NCBI GenBank assembly: GCA_026390585.1
Contig: JAPLFP010000218.1
Span: 1 to 33,076 of the forward strand
Source of the DNA: Ignavibacteriales bacterium
Lineage (GTDB): Bacteria > Bacteroidota > Ignavibacteria > UBA10030
Direction: 5' to 3'
Length of the DNA: 33,076 nucleotides
Shown: in pieces, positions 4,263 through 29,700 of the stretch
Layout of the letters: the number at the start of each line of letters is the position of its first letter
Position numbering within the stretch: position 1 is the first letter of the stretch
Made by a program: the position numbers and the translations under genes
The notes under the pieces: model-generated
The model's input: the letters and a program-made list of their open reading frames with translations, nothing else
The model's database searches: none
Told to the model about the DNA's origin: nothing

Positions 4263-7200
4263 ATGAAAACTATCCCTCTGTCTCTCCTGTGCTTTGCGCT
4301 TCTCTGCGTTCATCCCGCGTCTGCTCAGAATTTCTGGCAACAAACAAATGGACCATTCGGCGGCAACGTGTCCTCTCTTGCTGTTGCTCCGAATGGATCG
4401 GTCTTTCTCGGGAGCAACGGCGGGGGCGTTTTTCGCTCAACAGACGGAGGTCAGAGCTGGATTCAAATGGGATTGGCAAACATTGATGTCAGGGTGCTTG
4501 CGATCAATGCCAACGGAACCGTCTTCGCGGGCGCGTACGTCGGCGGTGTCTACCGGTCAACCGATAATGGCAGGAGTTGGACGCAAACCGGGTTGATGTA
4601 TGATGGCGTGCGCTCTCTGGCGATAGCTCCAAACGGCGACATCTATGCAGGAGCGTATGCGGACGTGTTTGGCGTCTCCGAGAGTGTCCTCCGCTCGACG
4701 GACAATGGCGCCACGTGGTCCGTGACTGGCTTGACGGTCGAATGGAATGATATCATGACTTTGGCCGTCAATTCGAAAGGAAATATTTTCGCCGGTGCCG
4801 TTTCCGGCTTGTTCGACTATACAGGCGGAGTTTATCGCTCGCTTGACAGCGGGAAGACCTGGACGCCAGTGACGTTAGGCTTGACGAGCGTTCCTGCTTA
4901 TGCAATTGCCACTAGTCCCGGCGGCGATCTTTATGCCGGGACAAACGCAGGGGTGTTTCGCTCCTCGAACAATGGCGGAAACTGGACAAAGACCGCGTCG
5001 ACAGTTACAGACGCTGGAACACTTGCAATCAACGCGAATGGAGACGTTTTCGCGGGCAATGGCAGCGGCATCTTTCGATCGACCAATTCCGGCGCCACTT
5101 GGACCCGAATGAATGTCGGTTTGACCAGCACCGATGTCAACGCTCTCGCACTTGGCTCGACGGCACAGGTTTTTGCTGGAACAGGAAACAGTGTGTTCCG
5201 TTCGTCAGATAACGGAGGAAGCTGGACTCAAACTAATAATGGCTTCGTCGGTACTCGCATCCAGTGTCTTGGCTCCCTTTCAAACGGAAAGCTCATCGCC
5301 GGTACCAATATCGGTGTCTTTTTCTCTCCGGATAATGGCGATCACTGGGCATCTTACAATTTCGGATTGACCAGCACGGATGTCCGGTCCATCGTCGTAA
5401 GCACCAATGGGAGCATCTTGGTCGGGACAACAGACGGGGTTTCACGATCGCCAGACACGTTGTACAACTGGATTCCAAGCGGTCTATCATCTCATACTGT
5501 CCAAACGCTGGCCGTCAACTCGAGCGGGGACATCTTTGCAGGCACCGATTCGGGTATGTTTCGGTCGACGGATAACGGAGGAAAATGGACGCCAGCCGGT
5601 CCTGCCGGTAAGGAGGTCTCGGTCGTGGCCATTCAATCTGGTGGATATGGCTATGCAGGACTGAGGATCGGTGTCTATCGCTCGACTGACAATGGCGCGA
5701 ATTGGTACCCAAGTGGATTGACAAATGTTGTCGTCCAAACGCTTGCCTTCACTTCGAGTGGGTGGGTACTCGCGGGTACACAAGATGGTGTCTATCGTTC
5801 ACAGAATAATGGTACGAGTTGGCAACCGATGAATCCGTTACCGAGCGTTGCCAATGCATTGGTGGTCAATGCAACCGGTCAGGTTTTTGCCGGAACGGAG
5901 TCGGATGGAGTGTTTCAATCGACCGATGAGGGAGGGACTTGGAATTCTCTCACAACCGGACTCTTGAATTCATCCACTCTCTCTCTCGCGGCAGATCCCA
6001 TCGGATTCCTGTTTGCCGGGAGCGGTGGCAGCGGCGTGTTCAAGAGCGTGCAGTCAACGCTGGCAGTCGTGACACAGCCGGCGACATCCGTTGACGCCAT
6101 TTCTGCTACTCTCAACGGCATAGTGAATCCAAGCGGAATGTCGACGACAGCATATTTCGAATCGGGAACCAGTAGTACGCTCTCAACGGTCACGACCACA
6201 AAGCCGAAGTCGATTGGATCCGGAGTGGTTGCCATCTCGGTATCAGACAGTCTGCGGGGACTCAGTCCCAGCACGACCTATTATTTTCGGATTGTGAGCG
6301 AGAACAGTGCCGGAACGAAAAAAGGTCAGATCCTCAGTTTTGCTACGAGCTCAAAACCGCCGACGGTGACGACAAACGGGGTGAGCTCAGTGACAGTGAA
6401 TTCTGCAACGCTCAACGGCACTGTAAATCCCAATGGAGCAACGACCACAGCCTACTTCAAATGGGGAACCACCGCCAACCTGGCGACTTCGGACTCGACG
6501 TCGGTTCAGAACAAGGGCTCCGGGCTCAATGATCAAGCGGTCACTGCATCGATCTCAGGGTTGACTTCGAACACTCCGTACTACTTTCAAATTGTCGCAC
6601 AGAATAGTGCCGGTTCTCAAAAAGGTTCTATCGAGAGTTTCACGACGCATGTGGCAGCGCCGGGCGCAGTTGCACTTTCGTCTCCTCAGTCCGGTGCCAT
6701 GAATCAACTTCTCACACCCACCTTGAGCTGGTCGGCCGTCGCAACAGCGACGATCTATCATCTACAGGTCTCGGCAAACTCTTCGTTCACGCCCCCCCTT
6801 GTCGTTGACGATTCAACACTGACATTGACATCGAGACAAATCGGTCCGCTCTTGTTCAATACGATCTATTATTGGAGGGTCAGTGCATCGAACAGCGGAG
6901 GAACAGGCCAATTCTCGAACTTTGCAAGTCTTATGACTCTTCCTTCTGCTCCTGCGAACATTGCGGCGCGCACGACGCTTAACTTTCCAGCCAGAACAAA
7001 GCGAGCTGACTACGGGGCTGCGGACTATCGAATTGTCGGTCTGCCGGGTGCAAGCAACCTGAGCATTGGTTCCATCGTTACTGGAAATCACTCTGAAGAC
7101 TGGGAAGTGTACTGGGACAATGGCACCGCGAACGACTATCTGCAGCAGTACGACGGGGGAGCAGCGTTTCAATTCTCGGTCGGCAGGGCCTTCTGGGTCC

Positions 7201-8270
7201 TGTCGAAGAGTGCCATCAACATCGATCGCTCGGTGGCCGCGGCCCCGCTGAGTTCAGCCTATGAAGCGGACGTGCCACTCCACCCCGGCTGGAACCTCAT
7301 CACCAATCCGTTCGGTTCATCTATTCCGTGGTCGAGAATCCAGGCGGCGAATGGCAACCTGACCACTCCGATTTATTCCTTCTTTGGTTCGTTTGCCCCT
7401 TCAACGAGTTTCGATCCGTGCGTGGGTTACTATTTCTTTAATGGCTCACCTGCCACAACACTCTCTTCAATAAAGGTGCCTTATCAGGCAATCTACGCCG
7501 ATCTCGTTGATGTTCCGGTGGGAATGCGAGCAGGATGGGTGGCGAGTGTCCAGCTTTCAGCGAGTGGGGTGGTCGACTGCAGCACTCGGTTCGGAATGTC
7601 TGATGCGGCGGAAAGAGGGCTTGACCAATTCGATGTTCATAAACCGCGAGCGATTGGCTCTCTCCCCAGCATTGCGTTTGAAAGACCTCAATGGGATCCT
7701 GAGTTCACGTCCTTTGCGGCGGACATACGATCGCCAATCGGTGATCTTGAGAAATGGGAGATTGATGTGAGATCGGAGCGAGGGAGTGAGACATCGCTTA
7801 CCTTCCGAGGCATCAAGAGTATTCCATCGCAATTTGAGGTGTATCTGGTCGACAAGGAAAGGACGCACTCGGCTGATCTTCGAAAAGATTCAGTCTACAT
7901 CTTTACTGCCACAGGGGATCATGCCGAATTGTGTATTCTCGTAGGGAGAAAAGATCTCGTCATCAAGCAAGCAGCCGAGGTGATCCCGACTGAACTGAGC
8001 CTAAGCCAGAATTATCCGAACCCGTTCAATCCTGTTACCAGCGTTGTGGTCTCGCTTCCCACTGTTTCCGTGATTCGGCTTGCGGTATTCAACATCTTGG
8101 GTCAGTCTGTGCGCGTCCTCTTTGCGGGCAGCCTGGAACCGGGACAGCATCGGTTCAGTTGGGATGCAAAAGATGAACGTGCTCTTTCGGTCCCAAGTGG
8201 CGTCTATTACTGTCGTCTTGATGTCTCAAATGCTCGATCCCTCACGTCCAAGATGATTCTCATCAAATGA
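4263..8270 (+). CDS. large secreted beta-propeller / FN3 protein with T9SS sorting tail
   Basis: I start at the ATG at 4263, which gives a clean signal peptide (MKTIPLSLLCFALLCVHPASAQ); the frame is open to a GTG at 4239. After the signal come 14 repeats of about 41 residues, built on a motif of the type VFRSTDNGxSWTQ, as in BNR/Ycf48/sortilin-type propellers. Three fibronectin-III-like domains follow at about residues 600-900, each ending in a YYFRIV-ENSAG or YYWRVSASN strand. Next is a ~330-residue region common in FCB secreted proteins (LHPGWNLITNPF), and last a T9SS type A sorting domain (QNYPNPFNP, then VFNILGQ, then SGVYYCRL, to the C-terminal Lys). The protein should cross the outer membrane by T9SS and be attached or released at the cell surface. 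Its ligand is unknown; no catalytic motif is visible. Its stop overlaps the start region of the next gene, which suggests an operon with the two genes that follow. Confidence 0.93.
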   Translation: MKTIPLSLLCFALLCVHPASAQNFWQQTNGPFGGNVSSLAVAPNGSVFLGSNGGGVFRSTDGGQSWIQMGLANIDVRVLAINANGTVFAGAYVGGVYRSTDNGRSWTQTGLMYDGVRSLAIAPNGDIYAGAYADVFGVSESVLRSTDNGATWSVTGLTVEWNDIMTLAVNSKGNIFAGAVSGLFDYTGGVYRSLDSGKTWTPVTLGLTSVPAYAIATSPGGDLYAGTNAGVFRSSNNGGNWTKTASTVTDAGTLAINANGDVFAGNGSGIFRSTNSGATWTRMNVGLTSTDVNALALGSTAQVFAGTGNSVFRSSDNGGSWTQTNNGFVGTRIQCLGSLSNGKLIAGTNIGVFFSPDNGDHWASYNFGLTSTDVRSIVVSTNGSILVGTTDGVSRSPDTLYNWIPSGLSSHTVQTLAVNSSGDIFAGTDSGMFRSTDNGGKWTPAGPAGKEVSVVAIQSGGYGYAGLRIGVYRSTDNGANWYPSGLTNVVVQTLAFTSSGWVLAGTQDGVYRSQNNGTSWQPMNPLPSVANALVVNATGQVFAGTESDGVFQSTDEGGTWNSLTTGLLNSSTLSLAADPIGFLFAGSGGSGVFKSVQSTLAVVTQPATSVDAISATLNGIVNPSGMSTTAYFESGTSSTLSTVTTTKPKSIGSGVVAISVSDSLRGLSPSTTYYFRIVSENSAGTKKGQILSFATSSKPPTVTTNGVSSVTVNSATLNGTVNPNGATTTAYFKWGTTANLATSDSTSVQNKGSGLNDQAVTASISGLTSNTPYYFQIVAQNSAGSQKGSIESFTTHVAAPGAVALSSPQSGAMNQLLTPTLSWSAVATATIYHLQVSANSSFTPPLVVDDSTLTLTSRQIGPLLFNTIYYWRVSASNSGGTGQFSNFASLMTLPSAPANIAARTTLNFPARTKRADYGAADYRIVGLPGASNLSIGSIVTGNHSEDWEVYWDNGTANDYLQQYDGGAAFQFSVGRAFWVLSKSAINIDRSVAAAPLSSAYEADVPLHPGWNLITNPFGSSIPWSRIQAANGNLTTPIYSFFGSFAPSTSFDPCVGYYFFNGSPATTLSSIKVPYQAIYADLVDVPVGMRAGWVASVQLSASGVVDCSTRFGMSDAAERGLDQFDVHKPRAIGSLPSIAFERPQWDPEFTSFAADIRSPIGDLEKWEIDVRSERGSETSLTFRGIKSIPSQFEVYLVDKERTHSADLRKDSVYIFTATGDHAELCILVGRKDLVIKQAAEVIPTELSLSQNYPNPFNPVTSVVVSLPTVSVIRLAVFNILGQSVRVLFAGSLEPGQHRFSWDAKDERALSVPSGVYYCRLDVSNARSLTSKMILIK
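4428..6059 (+). repeat. 14 tandem propeller-blade repeats inside the secreted protein
   Basis: The coding region repeats with a period of about 120-130 bases. Blade motifs by eye, in order: VFRSTDGG, VYRSTDNG, VLRSTDNG, VYRSLDSG, VFRSSNNG, IFRSTNSG, VFRSSDNG, VFFSPDNG, VSRSPDTL, MFRSTDNG, VYRSTDNG, VYRSQNNG, VFQSTDEG and a degenerate VFKSVQST. Fourteen units fit two seven-bladed propellers; this is a count by eye and the domain split is inference. Units 8, 9 and 14 are the most diverged. Confidence 0.85.
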
Positions 8271-8809
8271 GGAGAAGCACGTTGCAGACGATCATGAAAA
8301 GATTTCGATCACTGTGCCATTTGCTTGTGGCGACACTTCTCCTGGAAACGAGCTTCATTTCCGCGGCACGTGCAGGGGAAGATGTGTCCGTGAAAAATGT
8401 TCGCTTTGAAATGTCGGGCCAGGTGATCAATGTGTTCTATGATCTCCAGGGGCCCGAGGGAGAAAACTACAATGTCAGACTTCTTCTCAAGAGGAAGCAA
8501 AACCCTTCCTTCCAATATGCGCCGCGCTCATTGACTGGTGATTTCGGGCAGGGGCGGTTTGCGGGGATCAAGCGCCAGATTACTTGGGATATACTAAAGG
8601 AGTTTCAGGAGGGACTGGAAGGAACGGACTATTATTTCGTGGTCGAAGCGGAGATGATTTCGTCGGGAACCAGCATCCTCTGGTATATTGGAGGAGGCGC
8701 AGCGATCATTGCTGGGGCGGCGGTTCTCTTGTTGGGAAAACAAGCGCAAACTGGGACTGCGGCTACTGATGTGTTCCCAAAACCGATTGGAAGGCCGGCT
8801 GGAAATTGA
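8267..8809 (+). CDS. exported small protein with C-terminal membrane anchor
   Basis: The frame starts in an ATGA overlap with the upstream stop (ATG 8267). Two other starts are plausible: TTG at 8282, which has AGGAGA seven bases upstream, and ATG at 8294, which gives the neatest signal peptide (MKRFRSL, then a hydrophobic run to SAARA). The mature part (about residues 37-130 from 8267) looks like one beta-sandwich domain (VKNVRFEMSGQVINVFYDL, then a ...FVVEAEM strand). It is followed by a single transmembrane helix at about 136-157 (SILWYIGGGAAIIAGAAVLL) and a short polar tail. It is thus likely periplasmic and tethered to the inner membrane. I do not recognise a named family, though proteins of this shape occur near caspase-like genes in FCB genomes (recollection, not searched). 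Its tight position between the secreted propeller and the caspase argues for a joint role. Confidence 0.8.
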   Translation: MRRSTLQTIMKRFRSLCHLLVATLLLETSFISAARAGEDVSVKNVRFEMSGQVINVFYDLQGPEGENYNVRLLLKRKQNPSFQYAPRSLTGDFGQGRFAGIKRQITWDILKEFQEGLEGTDYYFVVEAEMISSGTSILWYIGGGAAIIAGAAVLLLGKQAQTGTAATDVFPKPIGRPAGN

Positions 8810-8838
8810 AAGCAAGGGAATTGTGCATTGGAGCTCCC

Positions 8839-9999
8839 ATGAAAACTGCTACGTTCTTTTCTTGCATCGTTTTGCTGGCGTCTCTTGCCTTTGAGACATC
8901 TCTGGCGCAAACCTCTAAGGCTGAGAGCAACACGGGATCGTTGTCTCTTGGAGCCAGGAAGGTGCTCGACACAACTGGTCCGACGATTGAACTTCTGGAG
9001 CCCCACGGCATGACGCAACGGGGTCTGGAAACTACGGCGCAGGTTCTGGCAGCCACGACGAGTACTTCCTCGCTCGTGGTCAGGGGAATCGCTAGGGACT
9101 CGAGCGGTGTTGCTATGGTGCTTGTGAATGAACGAGAAGCGGAGCTCAAGCTTACTCCGTCTGGTGCTGAATTCAGCTATTCTGTACTCCTGGTTATCGG
9201 GGAGAACGAGATTGAGATTCGAGCGATTGACAGGTTTAAGAACAAGACTGAGCTCAGGCTGGTCGTTGTCCGGGAGGAATCGATCATCACTGGAAAGTTC
9301 TTTGCTCTCATCATTGCAGTCCAGAATTACAAGGACCAGACGATCAATTCATTGGATTATCCTCTGCAAGATGGTGAAAACGTCGCAAATGCTTTGACGG
9401 AAAACTACACATTTGACAAACGTGACATCACCATGCTCAAGGACCCGGACCGGAAGGAAATCATAAAAGTCTTCACTGATCTGAGAACGAAGTTGACGTC
9501 GAATGACAATCTGGTAATCTTCTACGCGGGTCACGGCATTTGGGATGAAGGACTTCGACAGGGATATTGGCTGCCAAGCAACGCAAACGCCACCGAACCG
9601 TCAGAATGGCTGCCAAACAGTACGGTGCGAGACTACATTCGCGGAATCAAATCGAAGCATACGCTCCTTCTTGCCGATGCCTGTTTTAGCGGTGGCATCT
9701 TTAAGACAAGAGATGCGCTCCCGCGCCCGGATATGGCGGTTCAGAAGACTTACGAATTGCCGAGCAAGACCGCCATCACGAGCGGCGCGATGAAAAGTGT
9801 CCCAGACAAAAGCGTCTTCATTGAGTATCTCGTCAAAAAGTTGAGGGAGAACAAAGAAAAATACCTCTATGCTCAGAGACTCTATCTGCAGTTGAAAGAC
9901 CCGGTCATCAACAATAGCCCCAACAGCCAAACCCCTCTTCACGGAGTGATCAATGAAGCTGGTGACGAAGGGGGAGATTTTATTTTCGTGAAGAGGTGA
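8839..9999 (+). CDS. exported caspase-like (peptidase C14) protein
   Basis: The ATG at 8839 has GGAG five bases upstream and opens a signal peptide (MKTATFFSCIVLLASLAFETSLAQ), so I prefer it to the upstream in-frame TTG at 8806. Residues ~45-145 look like a single Ig-like domain (GPTIELLEPHG, then GENEIEIRAIDRFKN). The caspase domain begins at GKFFALIIAVQNY. The catalytic pair is present: His232 in YAGHG and Cys282 in DACFSGG, numbered from 8839. Metacaspase-type members usually cut after basic residues, but the S1 pocket cannot be read with confidence here. There is no T9SS tail, so the protein probably stays in the periplasm. It is the third gene of the set with the T9SS-secreted propeller and the anchored protein. 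It may process or activate a partner; this is inference. Confidence 0.92.
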   Translation: MKTATFFSCIVLLASLAFETSLAQTSKAESNTGSLSLGARKVLDTTGPTIELLEPHGMTQRGLETTAQVLAATTSTSSLVVRGIARDSSGVAMVLVNEREAELKLTPSGAEFSYSVLLVIGENEIEIRAIDRFKNKTELRLVVVREESIITGKFFALIIAVQNYKDQTINSLDYPLQDGENVANALTENYTFDKRDITMLKDPDRKEIIKVFTDLRTKLTSNDNLVIFYAGHGIWDEGLRQGYWLPSNANATEPSEWLPNSTVRDYIRGIKSKHTLLLADACFSGGIFKTRDALPRPDMAVQKTYELPSKTAITSGAMKSVPDKSVFIEYLVKKLRENKEKYLYAQRLYLQLKDPVINNSPNSQTPLHGVINEAGDEGGDFIFVKR

Positions 10000-10120: not shown

Positions 10121-10140
10121 GCCCAGCCGCAAGGCTGGGC
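10121..10140 (+). terminator. perfect 8-bp hairpin with GCAA tetraloop
   Basis: GCCCAGCC (10121-10128), loop GCAA (10129-10132) and GGCTGGGC (10133-10140) form a perfect stem closed by a GNRA tetraloop, 121 bases after the caspase stop. It is followed by GCAGTTGTTTCT, which is only weakly T-rich. It may be a transcription terminator for the three-gene set, or a structured element in the leader of the next gene. Confidence 0.5.
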
Positions 10141-20100: not shown

Positions 20101-20973
20101 ATGAGTATCCCTGGTCTCACGATCATCGGTGAATCGATTAATGACTCTGTCCCATCCACTCACACATTGTTTGAAGAAAACAACATTGATGGCATCGTTG
20201 ATTTGGCGAGAGTGCAGGCTGAAAAGGGGGCGGCTTGCATTGATGTAAATGTCGGGTCCCGTTCTCCGGGCTTCATGGCAGAGGTTGTTAAGAAAATCCA
20301 AGAGCGCATCTCGCTCCCACTTTCCATAGATACCCCCGATTTGGAAATTGCAGCTGCAGGACTCGAAGCATACGATGCCGAACGTGCCGGAAATCAAAAG
20401 CCGATTCTGAATTCAATTTCTGAATCACGCCTGGAATTGTTTGACCTTTATGCAACTCAGCCGTTCATCCCCATTCTACTCGTCACCGAAGGGTTGGACA
20501 ACTCCGGTGAAATGATCATGAATACGACAGCCGGACAAATCCACGCTACGGCGAAATCGATGGTTGGCATTGCCCGAAAACGGATAGAACGCATAACGAA
20601 CGACAAAATCACTCTTGATCCCGGCATCATGCCGATCGGGAGTGATTCAAAGGGAGATTTCAAGCGGCTCATGGAGGCAATGGCGTTGATTCATCAGGAT
20701 AACGATCTCGCCGGTGTAAACATGTCAGTTGGATTGAGCAACTTTACAGCTATGTTGCCTTCAAAGCGGGGAGACGGTTCGCCGGTGAAAAGCCCACTCG
20801 AGAGTGCATTTCTGACCATGGCAATGCCGCTGGGATTGAATACCATCATCGGTTCTGTGAACCGCAAATACTCGCTTCTGACAGATGATGACGCGGCTAT
20901 GCAATGTCTGAGAGATGCGTTGAAACTGGAGGGGGTAGACATAATAACGAGAGTGATGATGTACTTTTCATAA
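20101..20973 (+). CDS. methyltetrahydrofolate:corrinoid protein methyltransferase (pterin-binding)
   Basis: The 290-residue protein is a single pterin-binding TIM barrel of the dihydropteroate synthase/AcsE/MtvA kind. Seen in order: IIGESIN at the first strand, IDVNVGSR (47-54) with the conserved Asp and Asn, SIDT (75-78), Asn104 in PILNSISES, DPGIMPIG at the sixth strand and GVNMSVGLSNFTAMLP at the seventh. The GLSN turn is typical of B12-dependent folate methyltransferases and unlike folate-synthesis DHPS. The enzyme moves a methyl group between a corrinoid protein and the N5 of tetrahydrofolate. The partner corrinoid protein is encoded at 22836. ATG 20101 follows AAGGGGGTCGGTGA. It is the first gene of the one-carbon set and is cut off from the others by the inverted-repeat unit at 20984-21437. 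Confidence 0.9.
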   Translation: MSIPGLTIIGESINDSVPSTHTLFEENNIDGIVDLARVQAEKGAACIDVNVGSRSPGFMAEVVKKIQERISLPLSIDTPDLEIAAAGLEAYDAERAGNQKPILNSISESRLELFDLYATQPFIPILLVTEGLDNSGEMIMNTTAGQIHATAKSMVGIARKRIERITNDKITLDPGIMPIGSDSKGDFKRLMEAMALIHQDNDLAGVNMSVGLSNFTAMLPSKRGDGSPVKSPLESAFLTMAMPLGLNTIIGSVNRKYSLLTDDDAAMQCLRDALKLEGVDIITRVMMYFS

Positions 20974-20983
20974 GACGTCTTAC

Positions 20984-21437
20984 TTACCACCGATGGCACA
21001 CGGATGATCACCGATAAGAACGAAAAGATAGATCTTTTGTACGAAGAGATAACATATAAGGTCATCGGTGCCGCGATTGAGGTCCATAAAGTCTTAGGTC
21101 CAGGGTATTTAGAGTGAGTATATGAGGATGCATTCTGTTATGAATTGGAAAAGGTGAGCGTTTGTTTTGAACGACAAGTGGAATTGGATGTGAAGTATAA
21201 GGATGCAATTTTCAAGAGGAGGTTTAAGGCGGATTTGATTGTAGAAGAGAAAGTTCTTGTTGAAAACAAAGCGATAGCAGCACTCACCGCCAGCGACGAA
21301 GCACAACTGTTCAATTACTTGAAGACCACTGGATTGCGAGTAGGTTTGCTTTTTAACTTCGGGAATTCCAAGCTGGAAAAGACTAGGCGTATTTTGTAAT
21401 TCAACATCCGTGTGACTCGGTGTGCCATCAGTGGTAA
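20984..21437. mobile_element. inverted-repeat-bounded unit carrying a GxxExxY gene
   Basis: The ends are TTACCACCGATGGCACAC (20984-21001) and GTGTGCCATCAGTGGTAA (21420-21437); reverse-complemented, the right end matches the left at 17 of 18 bases. A further CACACGGATG-like block follows inside both ends, with ten extra bases on the right. The unit is 454 bases and holds one gene, broken by an in-frame stop. It lies between two genes that would otherwise form one operon. I see no clear target-site duplication. A GxxExxY gene is the only cargo, so movement would have to depend on enzymes elsewhere. Confidence 0.65.
21004..21399 (+). pseudogene. GxxExxY family protein, interrupted by UGA
   Basis: Reading from ATG 21004, the frame gives MITDKNEKIDLLYEEITYKVIGAAIEVHKVLGPGYLE in two parts (motif IGAAIEVHKVLGPGYLE), then stop TGA at 21115-21117, and continues in the same frame with VYEDAFCYELEK to RVGLLFNFGNSKLEKTRRI and stop. 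The family motif is GPGFLESVYE, so the stop has replaced the Ser codon, most simply TCA to TGA. The rest is intact (conserved KADLIVEEKVLVENKA and ASDEAQLFNYLK). GxxExxY proteins are related to PD-(D/E)xK nucleases and have no settled function. A restart at TTG 21145 could give an N-truncated product, but the family core would be missing. No SECIS-like element is obvious, so recoding is unlikely. Confidence 0.8.
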
Positions 21438-21491
21438 ACTCAATGAGCAACTACCACACGTCATCAATAATGTGAAGACAAGGAACTATCT

Positions 21492-21950
21492 TTGTTAAAA
21501 GATTTCGTCAGTTTCAACATGCCCCCCATCACGGCAAAGGAACGAAGATTCTCACGTCTTCTCCTCTTTTTTGAAGACATCGTAAAAGTCCCCTTGTTTC
21601 GCTGTCAACATTGTGGCGAATGTATTTTGTCCTCAACAGCGTTTATCTGCAGCCAGAATTGTCCCAAACGGCTGCGCAATGGTCCGTGTGGGGGAACCGG
21701 CGAGGATGGGTCGTGTGAAGTGTATCCCGAACGGAAGTGCGTATGGTACAAAATATACTATCGATCAAAACTGTTGAATCGAATGAGCTTGCTGTACAAA
21801 ATCAACAAGATCCACAATTACAATCTGGAACGCACATCATCGTGGCTCAATGTATTCAGAAAGCGTATCGATCCGCCAATGTGGTTTGTCCGCAATGACA
21901 AGCAAAAAGTGAAGGACCTGATTTCTGATGACGTTCAAAGAAAAGATTGA
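21492..21950 (+). CDS. metV: MetV-like Cys-rich partner of methylenetetrahydrofolate reductase
   Basis: The 152-residue protein has the eight-cysteine pattern of the MTHFR C-terminal/MetV family: Cys38, 41, 44, 53, 57, 66, 75 and 83, within RCQHCGECILSS, SQNCPKRLRNGPCGG and GSCEVYPERKCVWY. In acetogens MetV forms a complex with MetF and helps electrons reach the reductase through an iron-sulfur or zinc site. The start is TTG at 21492 with AAGGA upstream; ATG at 21519 (MPPITAKERR) is an alternative. The last 23 bases overlap metF, which implies translational coupling. The C-terminal third (about residues 88-152) is basic and carries no motif I know. The start codon lies 55 bases past the right end of the inserted GxxExxY unit, so any upstream operon promoter now has to read through that unit. 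Confidence 0.88.
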   Translation: MLKDFVSFNMPPITAKERRFSRLLLFFEDIVKVPLFRCQHCGECILSSTAFICSQNCPKRLRNGPCGGTGEDGSCEVYPERKCVWYKIYYRSKLLNRMSLLYKINKIHNYNLERTSSWLNVFRKRIDPPMWFVRNDKQKVKDLISDDVQRKD

Positions 21951-22824
21951 ATCGAATCAGTTTATCGTTTGCGGGGAAGTCGGCCCGCCGCAAAGCTGCG
22001 ATGGCGATGTCATCCGCAGCAAATCAAAATATTTCAAAGGCTACGTTGATGCTGTCAATATCACCGACAACCAGACGGCGACCGTTCGACTTTCGAGCAT
22101 TGCCTCAGCAAAGATATTGCTGGACGAAGGTGTTGAACCAATCATGCAGATGACTTGCCGGGACCGCAACAGATTGGCGATTCAAAGCGATCTCCTGGGC
22201 GCCGCCGCGTTAGGCATCCGGAATGTGCTCTGCCTGACGGGCGATCATCAGACAATTGGTGACCAACCCGAAGCCAAAGGGGTGTTTGATCTTGATTCCA
22301 TCCAGCTCATAGCCACGGTCTCTGAAATGAACAGGGGATTCCTGCTTTCTGGTTATGAAATGAAAACAGCCACTGCGTTTCTCATTGGCGCAGCGGCGAA
22401 TCCATTCGCTGAGCCGTTTGAAATGCGACTCATTCGTCTGCATAAAAAAATTGAAGCCGGGGCGCATTTCATCCAAACGCAGCCTGTTTTTGATCTGGAG
22501 ATTTTCACCCGATGGATGGAGAGAGTAGTCGAAATGGGTCTTCATGAAAAAACGGCGATTCTCGCCGGCGTCTTGCCGGTAAAATCGCCAAAGACGTTAC
22601 TGTGGATGAAGAAAGAAGTGCCCGGCGTTAAGATACGTGATGAATATATTCACAGAATGAGAGATGCGAGCGATCCGGAGGAAGAGGGCGTCAAAATGGC
22701 TGTTGAGATTATTCAAACGCTAAGAAACATAAAAGGAGTTCGAGGCATCCATTTGATGCCTGCGATGTGGGAGAGTATCACTCCAACGATCATCAAAGAG
22801 GCGCGACTGAATACGACAAACTAG
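21928..22824 (+). CDS. metF: 5,10-methylenetetrahydrofolate reductase
   Basis: This 298-residue TIM-barrel flavoprotein of the MetF family starts MTFKEKIESNQFIVCGEVGPP; Glu17 is the catalytic acid position. Further signs are the VDAVNITDN strand, MQMTCRDRNRLAIQSDLLGAAALGIRNVLCLTGD (the typical folate/FAD region) and GAHFIQTQPVFD, followed by ILAGVLP. It interconverts methylene- and methyl-tetrahydrofolate. The short form paired with MetV is the one used by acetogens and other anaerobes, often run in the methyl-oxidising direction in demethylation pathways. ATG 21928 lies inside the end of the metV-like gene. The corrinoid protein gene follows after 11 bases, so the three are one transcript. 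The direction of the reaction here is inference. Confidence 0.95.
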   Translation: MTFKEKIESNQFIVCGEVGPPQSCDGDVIRSKSKYFKGYVDAVNITDNQTATVRLSSIASAKILLDEGVEPIMQMTCRDRNRLAIQSDLLGAAALGIRNVLCLTGDHQTIGDQPEAKGVFDLDSIQLIATVSEMNRGFLLSGYEMKTATAFLIGAAANPFAEPFEMRLIRLHKKIEAGAHFIQTQPVFDLEIFTRWMERVVEMGLHEKTAILAGVLPVKSPKTLLWMKKEVPGVKIRDEYIHRMRDASDPEEEGVKMAVEIIQTLRNIKGVRGIHLMPAMWESITPTIIKEARLNTTN

Positions 22825-22835
22825 GGAGAAGGATC

Positions 22836-23498
22836 ATGCAAGAGATTGTTGAACAAATTGCCATGTACGTTGCTCGAGGCAAAGTTTCGAAAACAGCCTG
22901 GTGGCCGCCCGATATGAAAGACCAAGACGGCGCCGACGAATTTGCGGCGGACGCGCTGAAGAAGGGCGTTCCACCGAGCGTGCTCTTGGCGGGCTGTATC
23001 CTGGGAATGGAACGAATCGGGAAAGAATTCGGTGAGAACAAAGCGTTTGTAACCAATCTGATCGTATCCGGTGTTGCTATGAATGCTGTTCTGAAACACA
23101 TAAAACCATACCTGGAATCCGGTGAGGTGAAACGCAAAGGCACATTTGTCATTGGAACCGTTACCGGCGATATGCATGACATCGGTAAAAATCTTGTGTC
23201 CATGATTATCAAAGGGGGCGGATTTGAAGTGATCGATCTTGGCGTGGATGTACCAACCAACAAATTCTTGGATGCAATTGCTCAGCACCCGGGTTGTTCT
23301 GTTGGCCTTTCCGCATTGTTGACGACGACAAAGCGCAATATGGCAACCAGCGTTGAAGCCATCAGGAAAACCTATCCTGGCACCAAAGTATTGGTCGGAG
23401 GTGCTCCCATTACGCAAGAATTCTGTACTCAAATTGGCGCCGATTTCTATTCACCAAATGCAAATGAGGCAGTAGGGTATTTGAACAAGTGGGTGTGA
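22836..23498 (+). CDS. corrinoid (B12-binding) methyltransferase protein
   Basis: I place the start at ATG 22836, which has GGGAGAAGG a few bases upstream; the frame is open to 22767, but that part overlaps metF and has no family character. The 220-residue protein has a four-helix cap domain (residues ~1-95, with LLAGCILGMERIGKEFGENKAFVTNLIVSG) and a Rossmann B12 domain. The B12 domain carries DxHxxG (Asp112, His114, Gly117; His114 is the lower ligand to cobalt), VGLSALLTTT and VLVGGAP. This is the MtaC/MtbC-like layout that carries methyl groups on cobalamin between a substrate methyltransferase and a second methyltransferase. The second one is encoded at 20101. No substrate methyltransferase (MtaB, MttB or MtvB type) or reactivating ATPase is in the window. 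Confidence 0.93.
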   Translation: MQEIVEQIAMYVARGKVSKTAWWPPDMKDQDGADEFAADALKKGVPPSVLLAGCILGMERIGKEFGENKAFVTNLIVSGVAMNAVLKHIKPYLESGEVKRKGTFVIGTVTGDMHDIGKNLVSMIIKGGGFEVIDLGVDVPTNKFLDAIAQHPGCSVGLSALLTTTKRNMATSVEAIRKTYPGTKVLVGGAPITQEFCTQIGADFYSPNANEAVGYLNKWV

Positions 23499-24413: not shown

Positions 24414-26723
24414 TCAATATGGATATCCAATGCCAACATTCAACACGAGGTTGTTCTTTCTCCACGACGGATTGCCGAAATCTATCTTCGACATGACCCA
24501 ACGCTCACCACTAGGCATCGATGGGATGCGCAATGGGAACGCAAGGTCAAACCGAAGAATGAAAAAGGACAGATCAAGCCGCAAGCCGAACCCTGTTCCA
24601 ACCGCCACTTCATCGAAGAATGTTTTGCCGGAGAACTGACTGCCCGGGCGGCTCGGGTCTTCCTGCAGCAGCCAGATATTTCCGGCATCGACGAACAGCG
24701 CGCCTCTGAGAATACTGACGATGGGGAACCGGTACTCGCAATTTGCTTCAAGTTTGATATCCCCGGCCTGGTCAATGAAGGATTTTGCAGCAACACTATC
24801 AGGAATTCTGTACGAACCAGGGCCAAGACCGCCTGCAACGAAAGCCCGCACGCTATTACTTCCCCCGATATAAAATTGCTTCACGTAGGGCATCGTCGCG
24901 GAGTTGCCATAGGGGACCCCTATTCCCACGATCAACCTGCTGGCAAATGACGCTGTTTGATCACTGGAATTGTAGTACTTCCGCACGTCGATGTCAAACT
25001 TGTAGTACTCTGAATATGTCGTCCCAAAGATCTCATAAGGAGTATCGGGCGTCGCTTTGTGCTTGATGAACAGTGATTGCACAAGCTGCAACAGGTTCCC
25101 CGACAAGTCTATGCTTCCTTTGAAGTACAGGTGGTTCTTGTGATCCTTCTCAAGTTGGTCATTGTATGTGAAGGAATAATTCTGTCCGATGATAAACTGC
25201 TCCTCAAAACTTTTTCTCAAAAATGGATTGGTGCTCAATAAGTCGTCGAATTTCTGCGTTCTATTTGTCAGATGTGCAAACGTAATCGAGAGCGGGCTGA
25301 GATTGTGTTCCGTGTTGATGGATTCCTTCCAGTTGTATCCAAATGAACCATCCACCGACAATAGCTGATAGTAGAGCAGTCGTTGGAGCAAGCTCAATCC
25401 AAGCACGATGCGTGTCTTTGGCACGAAGAGGCTCGATACGTTTTCGAGTCTGAACGGAGTAACGAACTTCGGCAGGTCTAATTCTGCACGCGTGCCAATC
25501 TCAAACGAATTCCCTCCCGACGGTCCCCCGCCAACAGGTATCTCAAGACCAGTTTCAAAACTCAGCGTAAACAGTTCAGCCCCACCGAACAAATTCCTGT
25601 TCCGGAAGCTGGATTCAAACACCGGTCCTGCAAGATTGTTCGATTGGGAAACGCCTCGCAATTCAATGCGAACGGTTTTTGTCGGCAACGGCGTCAGATA
25701 AATATGAGGTTCCAAACGCGGGATGCCTGCCGAATCAGCCTCGACAAATCGTATGTTCACGAACTTGAACACACCGAGATTCATGAGCCTGTTCAATGTG
25801 AGATCGTGGTTGTTTCTGCTGTAGGGGACTCCTTTTCTGAAGAAAACCGAACGGACGATGACGTCAGGGTCAAACTTCTTATCAAGGTCAAGGTAGTAGC
25901 AGCTGCCAATGCTGACAGTATCGCCCGCAGGCGTTGTGACACTGTCACGATTAAGCGAATAACCGGACTCAATGTAGGTGTTTCCTATCGTATAGGTGCG
26001 GGTTGCCTCGATGGGTATATCTCTTTTGACTTGAAGGGAAAGATCAACCGTTCTTTTCCCGGCGGTACTATCTGCTTGAAACACTATGAAGTCGGGAGAG
26101 AAATAGAAGTAGCCTTTTTCTTTGAGCGCAGCGTCAATGCGTTCCCGCTCCTGTTTGAGTTTCACGAGATCGTATTGGTCTCCCGCAGTGAGAATTGTCT
26201 CCCCCATGGTAGAACGAATTGCGTCAATCAGCGTGGTGCTGTCGCTTTTCACAGCAATACCATTGATTCTGTATGGTGAGTGAACTGCAATACCGTACTG
26301 AATATCTGCGGTTTTTTCCTGTTCACGTACCGTGTGGTGGACATCCGTTTGGAAGTATCCTTTGCTTTCCAACAGCGCTCGCATTCTTGCGGCAACCCGA
26401 TCGGGTTCGACAGATTGCAGCAACACCGGGGGTTCGCCCAAACTCTCCTTGAAGAACCCGATGTTGTACAACCATAACTTAAGGCGGAAGAGTCCGAGGA
26501 TTTTTCCATTCGGCTTCGGCTTGGCAAGGAGGTCCAATTGATTTTCCAGAACGCTTTTGTCCGGGATGCCCTCTTTCTCTTCGACATGCACATAGGCACC
26601 GGTATACAGCTTCTCACCTCGAGTGAGATATGCCGTGTTGCTGCAGCCCGAGGCGAAAGCCGCGAGAACCCCGGCGACCGCAGCAAGTACGAGAGAATCG
26701 GTCAGGGAGAATCCTCTTCGCAT
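24414..26723 (-). CDS. tamL: TamL, lipoprotein Omp85-family outer membrane protein
   Basis: The 769-residue protein starts at ATG 26721-26723 with a lipoprotein signal: MRRGFSLTD, a hydrophobic stretch, then ASGC with Cys27 as the lipidation site. Residues ~30-330 contain POTRA-like repeats (ALLESKGYFQTDV, ALKEKGYFYFSP, LMNLGVFKFVNIRFVE). The C-terminal ~400 residues are an Omp85 16-strand barrel that ends in an aromatic (GIGYPY) and carries a GGSNSVRAF block (the RGF-type lid loop motif of the family). In Bacteroidota, TamL is the lipid-anchored counterpart of TamA and works with TamB in envelope assembly and lipid transport. The start codon directly follows the tamB stop (TAG-ATG), so the pair is translationally coupled. 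Codon use and length are ordinary. Confidence 0.92.
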   Translation of the reverse strand: MRRGFSLTDSLVLAAVAGVLAAFASGCSNTAYLTRGEKLYTGAYVHVEEKEGIPDKSVLENQLDLLAKPKPNGKILGLFRLKLWLYNIGFFKESLGEPPVLLQSVEPDRVAARMRALLESKGYFQTDVHHTVREQEKTADIQYGIAVHSPYRINGIAVKSDSTTLIDAIRSTMGETILTAGDQYDLVKLKQERERIDAALKEKGYFYFSPDFIVFQADSTAGKRTVDLSLQVKRDIPIEATRTYTIGNTYIESGYSLNRDSVTTPAGDTVSIGSCYYLDLDKKFDPDVIVRSVFFRKGVPYSRNNHDLTLNRLMNLGVFKFVNIRFVEADSAGIPRLEPHIYLTPLPTKTVRIELRGVSQSNNLAGPVFESSFRNRNLFGGAELFTLSFETGLEIPVGGGPSGGNSFEIGTRAELDLPKFVTPFRLENVSSLFVPKTRIVLGLSLLQRLLYYQLLSVDGSFGYNWKESINTEHNLSPLSITFAHLTNRTQKFDDLLSTNPFLRKSFEEQFIIGQNYSFTYNDQLEKDHKNHLYFKGSIDLSGNLLQLVQSLFIKHKATPDTPYEIFGTTYSEYYKFDIDVRKYYNSSDQTASFASRLIVGIGVPYGNSATMPYVKQFYIGGSNSVRAFVAGGLGPGSYRIPDSVAAKSFIDQAGDIKLEANCEYRFPIVSILRGALFVDAGNIWLLQEDPSRPGSQFSGKTFFDEVAVGTGFGLRLDLSFFILRFDLAFPLRIPSMPSGERWVMSKIDFGNPSWRKNNLVLNVGIGYPY

Positions 26724-29700
26724 CTATTTCCCTTCTTTATCAGGAATCGGCTTGAGCGTAATGCCGAAAAGTTTTTCGAAATCGATCGTGAACACGACGC
26801 CAACACCCGTCTTGGTGATATCCCCGTCAATCGCGCCCGCGTATGAGTTTTGTCTGAAGACCTGCAACTGCCAGCGACCATCCTCGGTGAGTTTGTACAA
26901 CACTTTGAGATCGCCCGCAAAACTGTTGAGCGAGTTCTGCTGACTTCGCCGTCCCTCAAGGTCCACATTCCCTCCCACCTGAACGGTCACACGTTCGTCG
27001 AAGAGTTGTTTCGAGAGAGCCAGTTTCAATTGGGTCCGCCCTACAGCATTACCGGAAGAGTAATCTTGATATGAGTCCAAACCCACATTAAGGTTCGCGC
27101 CTGCAAGGTACTGTTCAGACAAACGGTTCAGCTGCGCAGAGAGAATTTGGCTGCCACTTGAACGGGCAAAATCGGAAAGCCCCCCGTTTCCACCGGCAGA
27201 GGCAAGCGGGTTTTCCGGGATGAACCTGCCCAGGACCAGAAGCGCAAATACTTGCTTGTTGAGTTCGGATTCTCGGCCATTCAGCTCATTAAGTTTCGCG
27301 TAAATAGATCCACTCAACACACCTCGTTGGTCCGGAGGCAGATCGAGTCTGAAATGAATATCCGGCTTCAGGAGTTTTCCCTTCATCATGAGGTAGACCT
27401 GGATGGGGAGTTCCTGCCTGTATTTGTTGCGTTCTTCCTGACTTATTCCGGTAAGTTGAGCCTGAATCAAATCCAGCGCCGCGGCTTTCACCGTGTAAAT
27501 TGCAGTGATATCGACGTCAGCTTCATACGGCGATCCAAACCACGTGAGGCTGCTTCCTTTTTCGATGGCGAAATCTCTCCTGATAACGTCCCCAAACGAA
27601 AGTTGGTACGATCCTTTGAGGATTTCATAACGCCCTGTGAGAGTCAGCTTTCCGCTTGGGTCAATGGTGAAGCTCAAAGTCGCTTCGCCCTGGATCACCA
27701 GTGAATCGCCCGCAATGGGGTCAATCAATATCCGGAGTTTGGAATCCTTGTTCACCGAGATATTTGATGTGAGGTCGATGGAGGAAAGCCTTGCTTCCGC
27801 GGTGTCCCTGCTTGTTCTGAGGTTCTGTCGAGACATGATAGTGTTGAGAGGAGTGTTGACGTCGACGAATCTTACAATGCCATAGAGCTCCTCCACAGCG
27901 AGTTGTGATTCCGGCAGGACGAATGCGAGATTGGTCCCCTTGTCCAGCTCTGCCTGCATGGTGACTATTGGTCTTCTCTGATCTCCTTTTACGGAAACAT
28001 CACTGTTGAGGATCACGGTGCCATAGTAGAGAGCGTCGCGGCTTGCGGGCTTGTTCAAAACAAGAAACTTGTCAGTGTGCGCTCGCAAATCGTAACTGTA
28101 GCTGCGGAAGTCTTCGGTAAACAAACGACCGCTCAAAGAAGCTGTGTTGCCGAGAGTATCGACAAGATCAAAGGACCTGATTTCGACTCCTTGAGCGTCA
28201 ATCTCTATCTTGCCATTGTTGAGATGCAGGTAGGTATCCAGGAATGTCGGGTTGAATGCAGTATTGGTGAAATTCAACTCCCCGCTCATGGAAGGTTTCT
28301 TCCTTGTACCTGTCACATGTAATCCGCCTGTCATTGTTCCTGATAGACGCCGCACGTGGCCGAAGGTAAAAGGCTCAATGCTGGCAAGATTCACTTTCGT
28401 GAAATCGCACGTAAGGTCCAGCTCGTTCCCGCCCTCCTCACTCCGATATTTCCCCCGCACGGCAATCTGGTTCCCATTGCCGGCAATGTCCATGGCTACT
28501 TCGTAGACATTTTCTGTCTGATTATTTGCACGCAGTGCAACATCGCCCACGTGTCTTTGACCGAAGCTGAAGTCTTTGATTGCGAGGTCAGACGTGAATG
28601 TCATCTTTGTTTCCAGATTCTGCAATGCGACATTCCCATTGAGGACTCCACCGAGCAGTCCGCTCTCGCGCTCCACGACATGAGAGAGTGTGGCGAGATC
28701 AAAATCGTTGAATTCAATCCTTAGTGGAGAGAGCAGGTTCTTCTCGTCAGTGCTCTGGAGAGAGAGGGATTGTCCCGCACCTCGCAACACGACATTATGT
28801 GCAACAAGCTTGTTCTTGCCAAAGAGCAGGTAATTGTCAGAAGGAACGTTCCACGGAAGATTTTGGAACACGATTCCATCCTTGTTGAATCGCAGCTTGT
28901 ATCCATCTGGAACACTATTGAATACTCCGGCAAGCAGCATTTTTGTGGAACCGTCGCTGCGGGTACTCTTGAGCGCAACATCGATGCTATCGTGCCCGGC
29001 TTTTCCGGCAAGTTGAAGATTTGTTACTCGGAACGTCGAATCTGCTATTGATCCCACCTTCAATGTTGCCAGCAGCAGATCGGCATCAGATGTGACCTTG
29101 ACACGAAGGCTATCGATCTTAAAATCATTATAGTCAACACTTGGGATGTCAATACTCACATTCAGGTTCTTTTTGTTGCTATCGTAATTGCCCTCAATGG
29201 ATCCTGCGGATAGTCGGTGGAGTTCCGGAAAGAATACGCCCGTGAGAGTGGCCGGATCGCGCAAGGTAATGTGAAACGTGAAAGCCTGGGCTTTGAGGTT
29301 CCTTCCGCGTTGCTCTCCCTGCAGGGTGAAATAGTGAGCAAAATGTCCTTTCAATAGTTCCGGCAAATCACCAGGAGCTATCGTGCCGTCGAATCGGCCT
29401 CCGAAGATCGTGGATTCGATACTGATGTGGGTTTGCCCTTCTTTGTTTGCCGATGCATAAACAAGAGAATCTATAGCATACCGTTTGCGGTTTTTGATGA
29501 TTAAGACATTACGCACATCGATCCTGCCATTGATGTCGTTTATGTCCCTTCCTGAAAGGTTGGATGTCATGATTCCTGCTACCTGAACCTCATCCGGGGT
29601 GAAGTTGAGCCGATGCAGGTCGGCGCCTTTCAGGTCGAGTGTGAATTTGTAAGTCGGATTCTTTTTGCTCGTGTTGACGCTGCCGTTCAATGTAAAGGCG

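Follow-up and report, generated by a model that had tools for sequence, protein, structure and literature searches.

The stretch of DNA analysed here (the window; 33,076 nucleotides, positions 1 to 33,076 of contig JAPLFP010000218.1, assembly GCA_026390585.1) is one contig of the 4.7 Mb genome of an Ignavibacteriales bacterium, and carries on its forward strand three genes encoding a predicted cargo of the type IX secretion system (T9SS; 4263–8270, 1335 residues), a small anchored protein that forms the hub of the putative system and is called SM below (8267–8809, 180 residues), and an exported caspase of the Peptidase_C14 family (8839–9999, 386 residues). The coordinates bear out the tight packing described in the initial annotation, the cargo and SM genes sharing the four bases of an ATGA at 8267–8270 while the caspase gene begins after a gap of about 30 bases. 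The open reading frames of the cargo and the caspase open further upstream, at GTG 4239 and TTG 8806 respectively, the latter before the end of SM at 8809; ATG 8839 is the most likely caspase start because it is preceded by GGAG and a good signal peptide begins there. Export signals are present on all three products, as had been claimed. Within the genome of the window the conserved domain of the cargo described below (E up to 1e-10) and SM (E up to 1e-4) each occur once, at this locus.

The cargo comprises a signal peptide, an Asp-box/Sortilin-type β-propeller with 11 Asp-box motifs (approximately 4320–6060; Sortilin-Vps10 1.9e-21, BNR 4.7e-10), FN3-like domains (approximately 6120–6900; fn3 and Pur_ac_phosph_N in Pfam), an unnamed conserved domain of about 360 residues that adjoins the sorting tail and is referred to here as the pre-tail domain (6876–7958), and a T9SS type A sorting tail with the sequence NYPNPFNP (8013–8258). 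The tail matches TIGR04183 (4.9e-7) with 29.6 bits against a cut-off of 23, while Pfam PF18962 scores under its cut-off. Both the PorU sortase (985 bits) and SprA (in pieces, best 644 bits) are encoded in the genome, which therefore possesses a T9SS. The propeller itself, taken initially as the key partner, is not supported in that position. When 23 cargos that precede SM were aligned, near-full occupancy was found only from about residue 760 onward, and the N-terminal parts of these 23 matched Sortilin-type (6), ASH (3), LamG (3), FG-GAP (2) and β-helix (2) families. The propeller, matched in just six of the 23, is thus ruled out as a conserved unit and constitutes the variable part of the family; SM accompanies the pre-tail domain instead, and the emphasis moves from the propeller to these two components. 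The pre-tail domain has a mean column identity of 46% among 20 chosen members (alignment A5), with the consensus LHxGWNLITNPF. Pfam gave a single hit to it, at chance level, and no chain in the Protein Data Bank (PDB) matched it with E under 0.2.

SM consists of a signal peptide, an Ig/FnIII-like β-sandwich predicted to be periplasmic (residues 41–131, 8387–8659), a single C-terminal hydrophobic helix rich in Gly and Ala (residues 138–156, 8678–8734) and a short tail. In the AlphaFold2 model the sandwich forms a block with a predicted local distance difference test score (pLDDT) of 94–98; the helix, modelled with low pLDDT, is also indicated by hydropathy. The conserved tail reads FPKPIGRP here (8774–8797) and commonly (F/L)PxPPxRP in the family, with P171 and R176 invariant across 49 aligned SM sequences. 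A strict PxxPxR motif, which resembles SH3 ligands, is present in 44 of 63 SM tails, although the window's FPKPIGRP does not fit it. None of 49 members matches a family in Pfam or NCBIfam, sequence comparison with the PDB gave chance-level matches only (E 0.63 and 0.97), and structural comparison with the PDB returned only the common Ig/FnIII arrangement (Z at most 7.0). Two SM relatives (L185, L187) have N-terminal signals that look lipoprotein-like by eye and also possess the C-terminal helix. A helix of the SM type followed by a Pro-rich tail also terminates the caspases of L067, L069 (which contains PEGA repeats) and L076, as well as a CsgG-like protein in L140 and look-alikes in L142 and L155; some of these caspase and CsgG-like genes lie near weak pre-tail genes. 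It is possible that this helix and tail represent a shared anchor module.

The caspase presents an N-terminal Ig-like domain (9052–9267; β strands in the model, Glucodextran_B 1.5e-4, below the Pfam cut-off) ahead of the caspase domain (9301–9936), which matches Peptidase_C14 at 4.2e-16 with 59.8 bits against a cut-off of 21.4. Across 29 aligned caspases, chosen from about 41 found in the locus pieces, the catalytic His (9532–9534), the DAC triplet (9676–9684) that contains the second pocket Asp (D280) and the catalytic Cys, and the predicted S1-pocket Asp D178 (9370–9372), which aligns with the Asp of metacaspase CIND, are all invariant. The initial description of a caspase with His and Cys in place and with no T9SS tail is therefore accurate. 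The second caspase of L072 has GHA instead of GHG. According to parts of PMC6426788, two pocket Asp residues accommodate basic residues in a trypanosome metacaspase, and since both are conserved here the window caspase is predicted to cut after Arg or Lys. Foldseek comparison of the model with the PDB ranks the MALT1 paracaspase and metacaspases first, and the best 50 matches are caspases, paracaspases and metacaspases with no C25 chain among them, a result still compatible with C25 kinship. NF033707 (T9SS_sortase) gives no match at E up to 0.1, and NF047832 (EACC1-associated caspase) scores 68.2 bits against its curated cut-off of 140. The claim that the caspase is exported extends beyond the window: a signal-peptide-like hydrophobic stretch lies near the start of 19 of 20 SM-adjacent caspases, in some only via a later start codon, the sole exception (L099) having masked bases at that place.

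The 100 nearest relatives of the window's genome contain SM profile matches above 100 bits at 64 places in 52 genomes; 63 of these loci were analysed, that of G081 being left out, and weaker matches in this near set were not counted as SM. Neighbouring genes were called with a codon-scored gene finder followed by stop-to-stop scans, and a neighbour was counted if on the same strand, within 9 kb for the pre-tail domain (at least 20 bits) and within 5.5 kb for the caspase. By this measure 56 of the 63 loci contain the pre-tail domain, 22 a caspase, 20 both and five neither. A T9SS tail motif lies at most 1 kb upstream of SM in 52 of the 63, and the pre-tail domain at most 1.5 kb upstream likewise in 52. 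With a simpler gene finder applied to the same pieces, a T9SS gene directly preceded, on the same strand and at most 300 bases upstream, 43 of the 58 SM genes that have an upstream neighbour in that comparison, vs 15 of 448 other genes. Counts at the genome level, with and without SM, and of distance to CHASE2 (below) use 106 pre-tail matches and leave weaker ones out. Among 49 genomes with a strong pre-tail domain (at least 200 bits) 47 belong to the 52 with strong SM, a comparison that ignores kinship, and a caspase lies near 18 of 55 strong pre-tail genes with SM vs none of 21 without (Fisher 0.0018). The caspase goes with SM and not with a strong pre-tail gene alone. Of the 12 strong-SM genomes in the window's family, 11 have a caspase at this place, and the trio is present in all six genomes analysed from its genus.

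Five near loci have neither the pre-tail domain nor a caspase in reach (L092, L101, L110, L119, L123). A T9SS tail nonetheless lies upstream in L092 and L119, while L123 starts close to the end of its contig and the last gene of L110, which is truncated, clusters with the caspases. Two further near loci (L107, L122) have a caspase with no pre-tail domain in the piece. A fixed third partner other than the caspase was sought among ten proteins encoded after SM and rejected, these being mostly housekeeping proteins (NAD synthase, asparagine synthase, class II tRNA synthetases, malate synthase and a GlmS-like protein) or a sensor kinase, with one CARDB/TPR protein and one protein with no match. 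Separately, a protein of 174–201 residues with no known domain recurs after SM in seven loci, in G002 and G004 (L064, L065, L068) a gene of 189–190 residues separates SM from the T9SS gene, and the stretch of G002 contig C3 from about 70 to 115 kb holds four strong pre-tail genes.

Farther relatives were drawn from two samples that both include near genomes, one of the phylum (31 of 296 genomes with a match) and one of the class (34 of 149). Outside the near set 31 SM places score above 70 bits, and all were analysed; nine places under 60 bits outside the order were left out. The pre-tail domain is found at 24 of these far loci, a caspase at 17 and both at 10, and at no far locus are both missing. 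The order of the genes differs between the two sets. T9SS gene–SM–caspase accounts for 17 of 20 near trios and one of 10 far trios, while SM–caspase–T9SS gene accounts for two of 20 near and eight of 10 far trios; each set contains one trio of odd order, that of the far set (L178) having a caspase on either side. That the members stay the same while their order changes is expected of a shared task and not of a block that is simply inherited. Seven far loci have a caspase and no pre-tail domain (L180, L182, L189, L190, L191, L199, L201); some of the pieces with this arrangement end within a few kb, and that of L182 has a weak pre-tail fragment at its end. Over all 94 SM loci the pre-tail domain is present at 80 and all three parts at 30, in two main gene orders, so that the search for co-occurrence proposed initially finds the three families linked. 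The grouping of the three genes is not due to chance. As judged from these alignments and neighbourhoods, the pre-tail domain and SM are a conserved pair; at a sizeable minority of the loci SM is joined by an exported caspase whose dyad is complete.

The caspase slot shows a further form of exchange. In a tree of 42 caspase domains the label of SM adjacency needs 10 changes, which may be gains or losses, at least eight of them by well-supported branches. The window's caspase groups with that of G003 and with SM-free caspases, mostly from other families, while G001, G002, G004, G005 and G015 carry another caspase subfamily at the matching slot; four of the five congeners have a subfamily other than the window's there. 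Relative to these five genomes the last 480 residues of the window's cargo are 43–48% identical and SM is 48–53% identical, while the caspase domain is only 26–31% identical, over short local alignments. Relative to G003 the pattern is reversed, with 30% identity for the end of the cargo, 31% for SM and 53% for the caspase domain. By these sequence comparisons the window locus is a mosaic part by part, in which the caspase subfamily appears to have been swapped at a kept slot.

Three parts that are repeatedly encoded together in this way suggest a shared task in the cell envelope. It is very probable that SM and the T9SS protein work together, and likely that the caspase belongs with SM. The mechanism that we favour, tentatively and as a little less than an even call when taken as a whole, is an envelope module dedicated to a single T9SS surface protein, which it would handle and process. 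SM would be held in the inner membrane, with its β-sandwich in the periplasm and its short conserved tail in the cytosol, and would meet the pre-tail domain of the cargo during periplasmic transit, before the cargo is exported by the T9SS to the surface. The periplasmic caspase, with its predicted Arg/Lys specificity, would act on the complex of SM and cargo, either trimming the cargo or releasing SM, and this action may set the delivery of the cargo or report on it. Outside the cell the exchangeable surface part (propeller, lectin-like, Ig-repeat and so on) would do the work, while in some lineages nearby CHASE2 proteins or cyclases may read the state of the module.

Several observations weigh against this scheme. 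No caspase was found within 5.5 kb at 55 of the 94 SM loci, so that the pair of SM and cargo does not need one; caspases with no SM just upstream occur at 18 places in the pieces, 14 of these in pieces chosen for SM-distant caspase matches. Independent occurrence of the three genes in most relatives, which the initial annotation had set against its own reading, accordingly holds in part for the caspase and does not hold for SM and the pre-tail domain. SM is found in only 31 of the 296 genomes of the phylum sample, which makes for a scattered distribution of the system. Most shuffles of the SM label on the caspase tree left it less clustered than observed (10 changes vs a mean of 14.1, with 11 of 500 shuffles as low), so part of the pattern reflects inheritance. 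The topology of SM is based on its signal peptide and hydropathy, a simple hydropathy cut being passed by 51 of 63 sequences, and Arg/Lys is richer just after the helix than before it in only 37 of 63. A crude test for cleavage sites by Arg/Lys content gave no signal, the mean near the SM helix being 0.8 at 21 loci with a caspase vs 1.0 at 41 without, and that over the 30 residues leading up to the T9SS tail motif being 3.5 at 14 caspase loci vs 2.9 at 31 without (p 0.39); the window's SM has no Arg/Lys in the 12 residues before its helix. Association of genes gives neither the direction nor the order of action. Finally, it can be argued that with SM in the inner membrane and the mature cargo beyond the outer one the two make contact only in transit. 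Because the outer membrane separates them in this way, transit contact is the simplest arrangement, and we place handling first and signalling second, although both readings can be true.

The signalling reading proposes surface sensing by regulated proteolysis, in which the propeller would bind its target outside, the periplasmic caspase would be switched on and would cut either SM or a CHASE2 protein, with a cyclic nucleotide made by a class III cyclase. The presence of CHASE2 domains says little, since they occur in 98 of 100 relatives, but their position may say more. Of the 150 CHASE2 places listed, 12 have a listed caspase match at most 8 kb away and 11 have a listed pre-tail domain at that distance, where crude estimates predict about 0.65 and about 0.8, respectively. 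A CHASE2-cyclase adjoins the trio in G003, G004 and G005 and adjoins SM in L183, while in L184 a tight run on one strand encodes a CHASE2 protein, an unknown protein, a papain/DUF4384 protein, SM, a caspase and a T9SS gene. The invariant Pro and Arg in the predicted cytosolic tail of SM would also suit such a role. However, no CHASE2 match was found among the 18 window proteins scanned, only three of those 150 listed places (G004, G005, G007) have a strong SM at 12 kb or closer, and the signal would still need a route from the outer surface to the periplasm. We regard surface sensing as possible but doubtful. The most extended form of the proposal, a scattered, phylum-spanning pathway in which a periplasmic Arg/Lys caspase would control a swappable T9SS sensor through an inner-membrane adaptor with a conserved cytosolic tail and inform CHASE2 receptors, seems to us unlikely.

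Other loci with CHASE2 neighbours were also encountered. A second conserved and packed locus, with no SM or caspase, is present in L150, L151 and L152 (G085, G053 and G040) and consists in order of a T9SS gene with a weaker pre-tail domain, a protein judged barrel-like by eye, proteins of 253–260 and 831–858 residues, and a CHASE2-cyclase. In L153 and L154 a caspase of about 800 residues is followed by a protein of about 230–250 residues (with DUF4384 in L153), and L153 adds a CHASE2-cyclase. Near the other caspase of the window's genome (L138, contig C7) is a protein that clusters with CHASE2-cyclases.

A simpler role would be that of an accessory maturation enzyme, the caspase trimming the cargo beside or instead of PorU and SM acting only as a chaperone. 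PorU, a C25 peptidase, is itself a caspase-fold enzyme of the T9SS pathway. Caspase subfamily and cargo surface part may also change together: at least three Asp-boxes are present in five of six cargos beside SM-linked caspases of the 17-row clade that contains the window's, the exception (L070) having a cargo cut by the contig end, and in two of 10 cargos beside other caspases, L088 not being counted and several cargos being contig-cut. Dedicated partners of single T9SS cargos are known from parts of PMC12618676. Yet all 21 genomes tested for PorU have it, the Arg/Lys comparison gave no indication of a cleavage site, and the CHASE2 neighbours are left unexplained, which makes this role distinctly improbable. 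Still less can be said for cell death or defence, with the caspase as an executioner set off by the surface protein. The PADLOC caspase model matches the window caspase weakly (1.5e-10), Pycsar cyclase models (best 1.1e-23) recognise the CHASE2-cyclase adjoining the trio in G004, a match that a class III cyclase domain could give by itself, and extracytoplasmic metacaspases are discussed in relation to cell death in parts of a 2012 survey (PMC3501461). All three window parts bear export signals, however, SM and the cargo are mostly kept with no caspase at all, and PADLOC, with three window proteins scanned, matches neither of these two, so we consider this very unlikely. Neutral linkage, in which the genes are co-inherited with no common task, could draw on the clustered SM label, on counts that all come from related genomes and on a genome-level test blind to kinship, but is scarcely credible when lineages differ in gene order and the neighbourhood persists through a change of caspase subfamily.

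Elsewhere in the window, a terminator-like stem-loop (10121–10140, read on both strands) lies 3′ of the caspase gene, one of 12 such sites in the region vs 6.0 expected by shuffling. An Omp85/POTRA protein and a TamB protein are encoded side by side on the reverse strand (24414–31712) as a TAM-like pair, and pterin-binding, MTHFR and B12-binding proteins stand in a row on the forward strand (20101–23498), forming a folate/methionine-type cluster.

Among the top-listed papers of a literature search, in which subscription journals were thinly covered, none appears to describe such a three-part set, in line with the initial annotation. If true, extracytoplasmic signalling by a caspase, SM, a sensor and CHASE2 would make a bacterial signalling protease system to which we know of no counterpart. 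On our reading of parts of the published surveys, little is known of what bacterial caspases interact with and cut in nature. The comparison presented here names two candidate partners, one of them an unnamed family, which stay together in separate lineages of the phylum despite changes of order and of caspase subfamily. For the T9SS, it introduces a type of cargo partner predicted to lie on the inner-membrane side and brings to light a large unnamed domain adjoining the sorting tail.

The closest parallel within the T9SS is provided by SprB/SprF-type pairs, in which a T9SS surface protein likewise has a specific partner encoded alongside; from parts of PMC12618676 and PMC9143113, type B cargos such as SprB have cognate PorP/SprF-like shuttles. 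SM does not look like an outer-membrane partner of this kind, with no family match in 49 members and a predicted small β-sandwich and single helix. Whereas those pairs combine a PorP/SprF-like shuttle with a type B tail, here a cargo whose tail matches the type A model is accompanied by a small, single-helix, Ig-like partner, often joined by a caspase. PorU also brings a caspase-like fold to the T9SS pathway and is itself encoded in the genome; the enzyme described here belongs to Peptidase_C14, lacks a T9SS tail and is encoded with one cargo. The sortase role of PorU is treated in parts of PMC4804311 and PMC8545088. Orthocaspases and prokaryotic metacaspases, as portrayed in portions of PMC6426788 and PMC3501461, have in common with the window caspase the C14 domain, the His–Cys dyad and the two pocket Asp residues; it differs in being exported, in its N-terminal Ig-like domain and in its ties to SM and a T9SS cargo. 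The same 2012 survey, in the parts available, lists operon neighbours of prokaryotic metacaspases by Pfam domain, with 16 operons having cell-surface functions, and includes a Trichodesmium metacaspase–CHASE2 fusion (PMC3501461). There too a caspase is linked with a CHASE2 sensor, but in one fused protein whose caspase is predicted to be cytoplasmic, while in the loci described here the two are separate and the caspase is exported.

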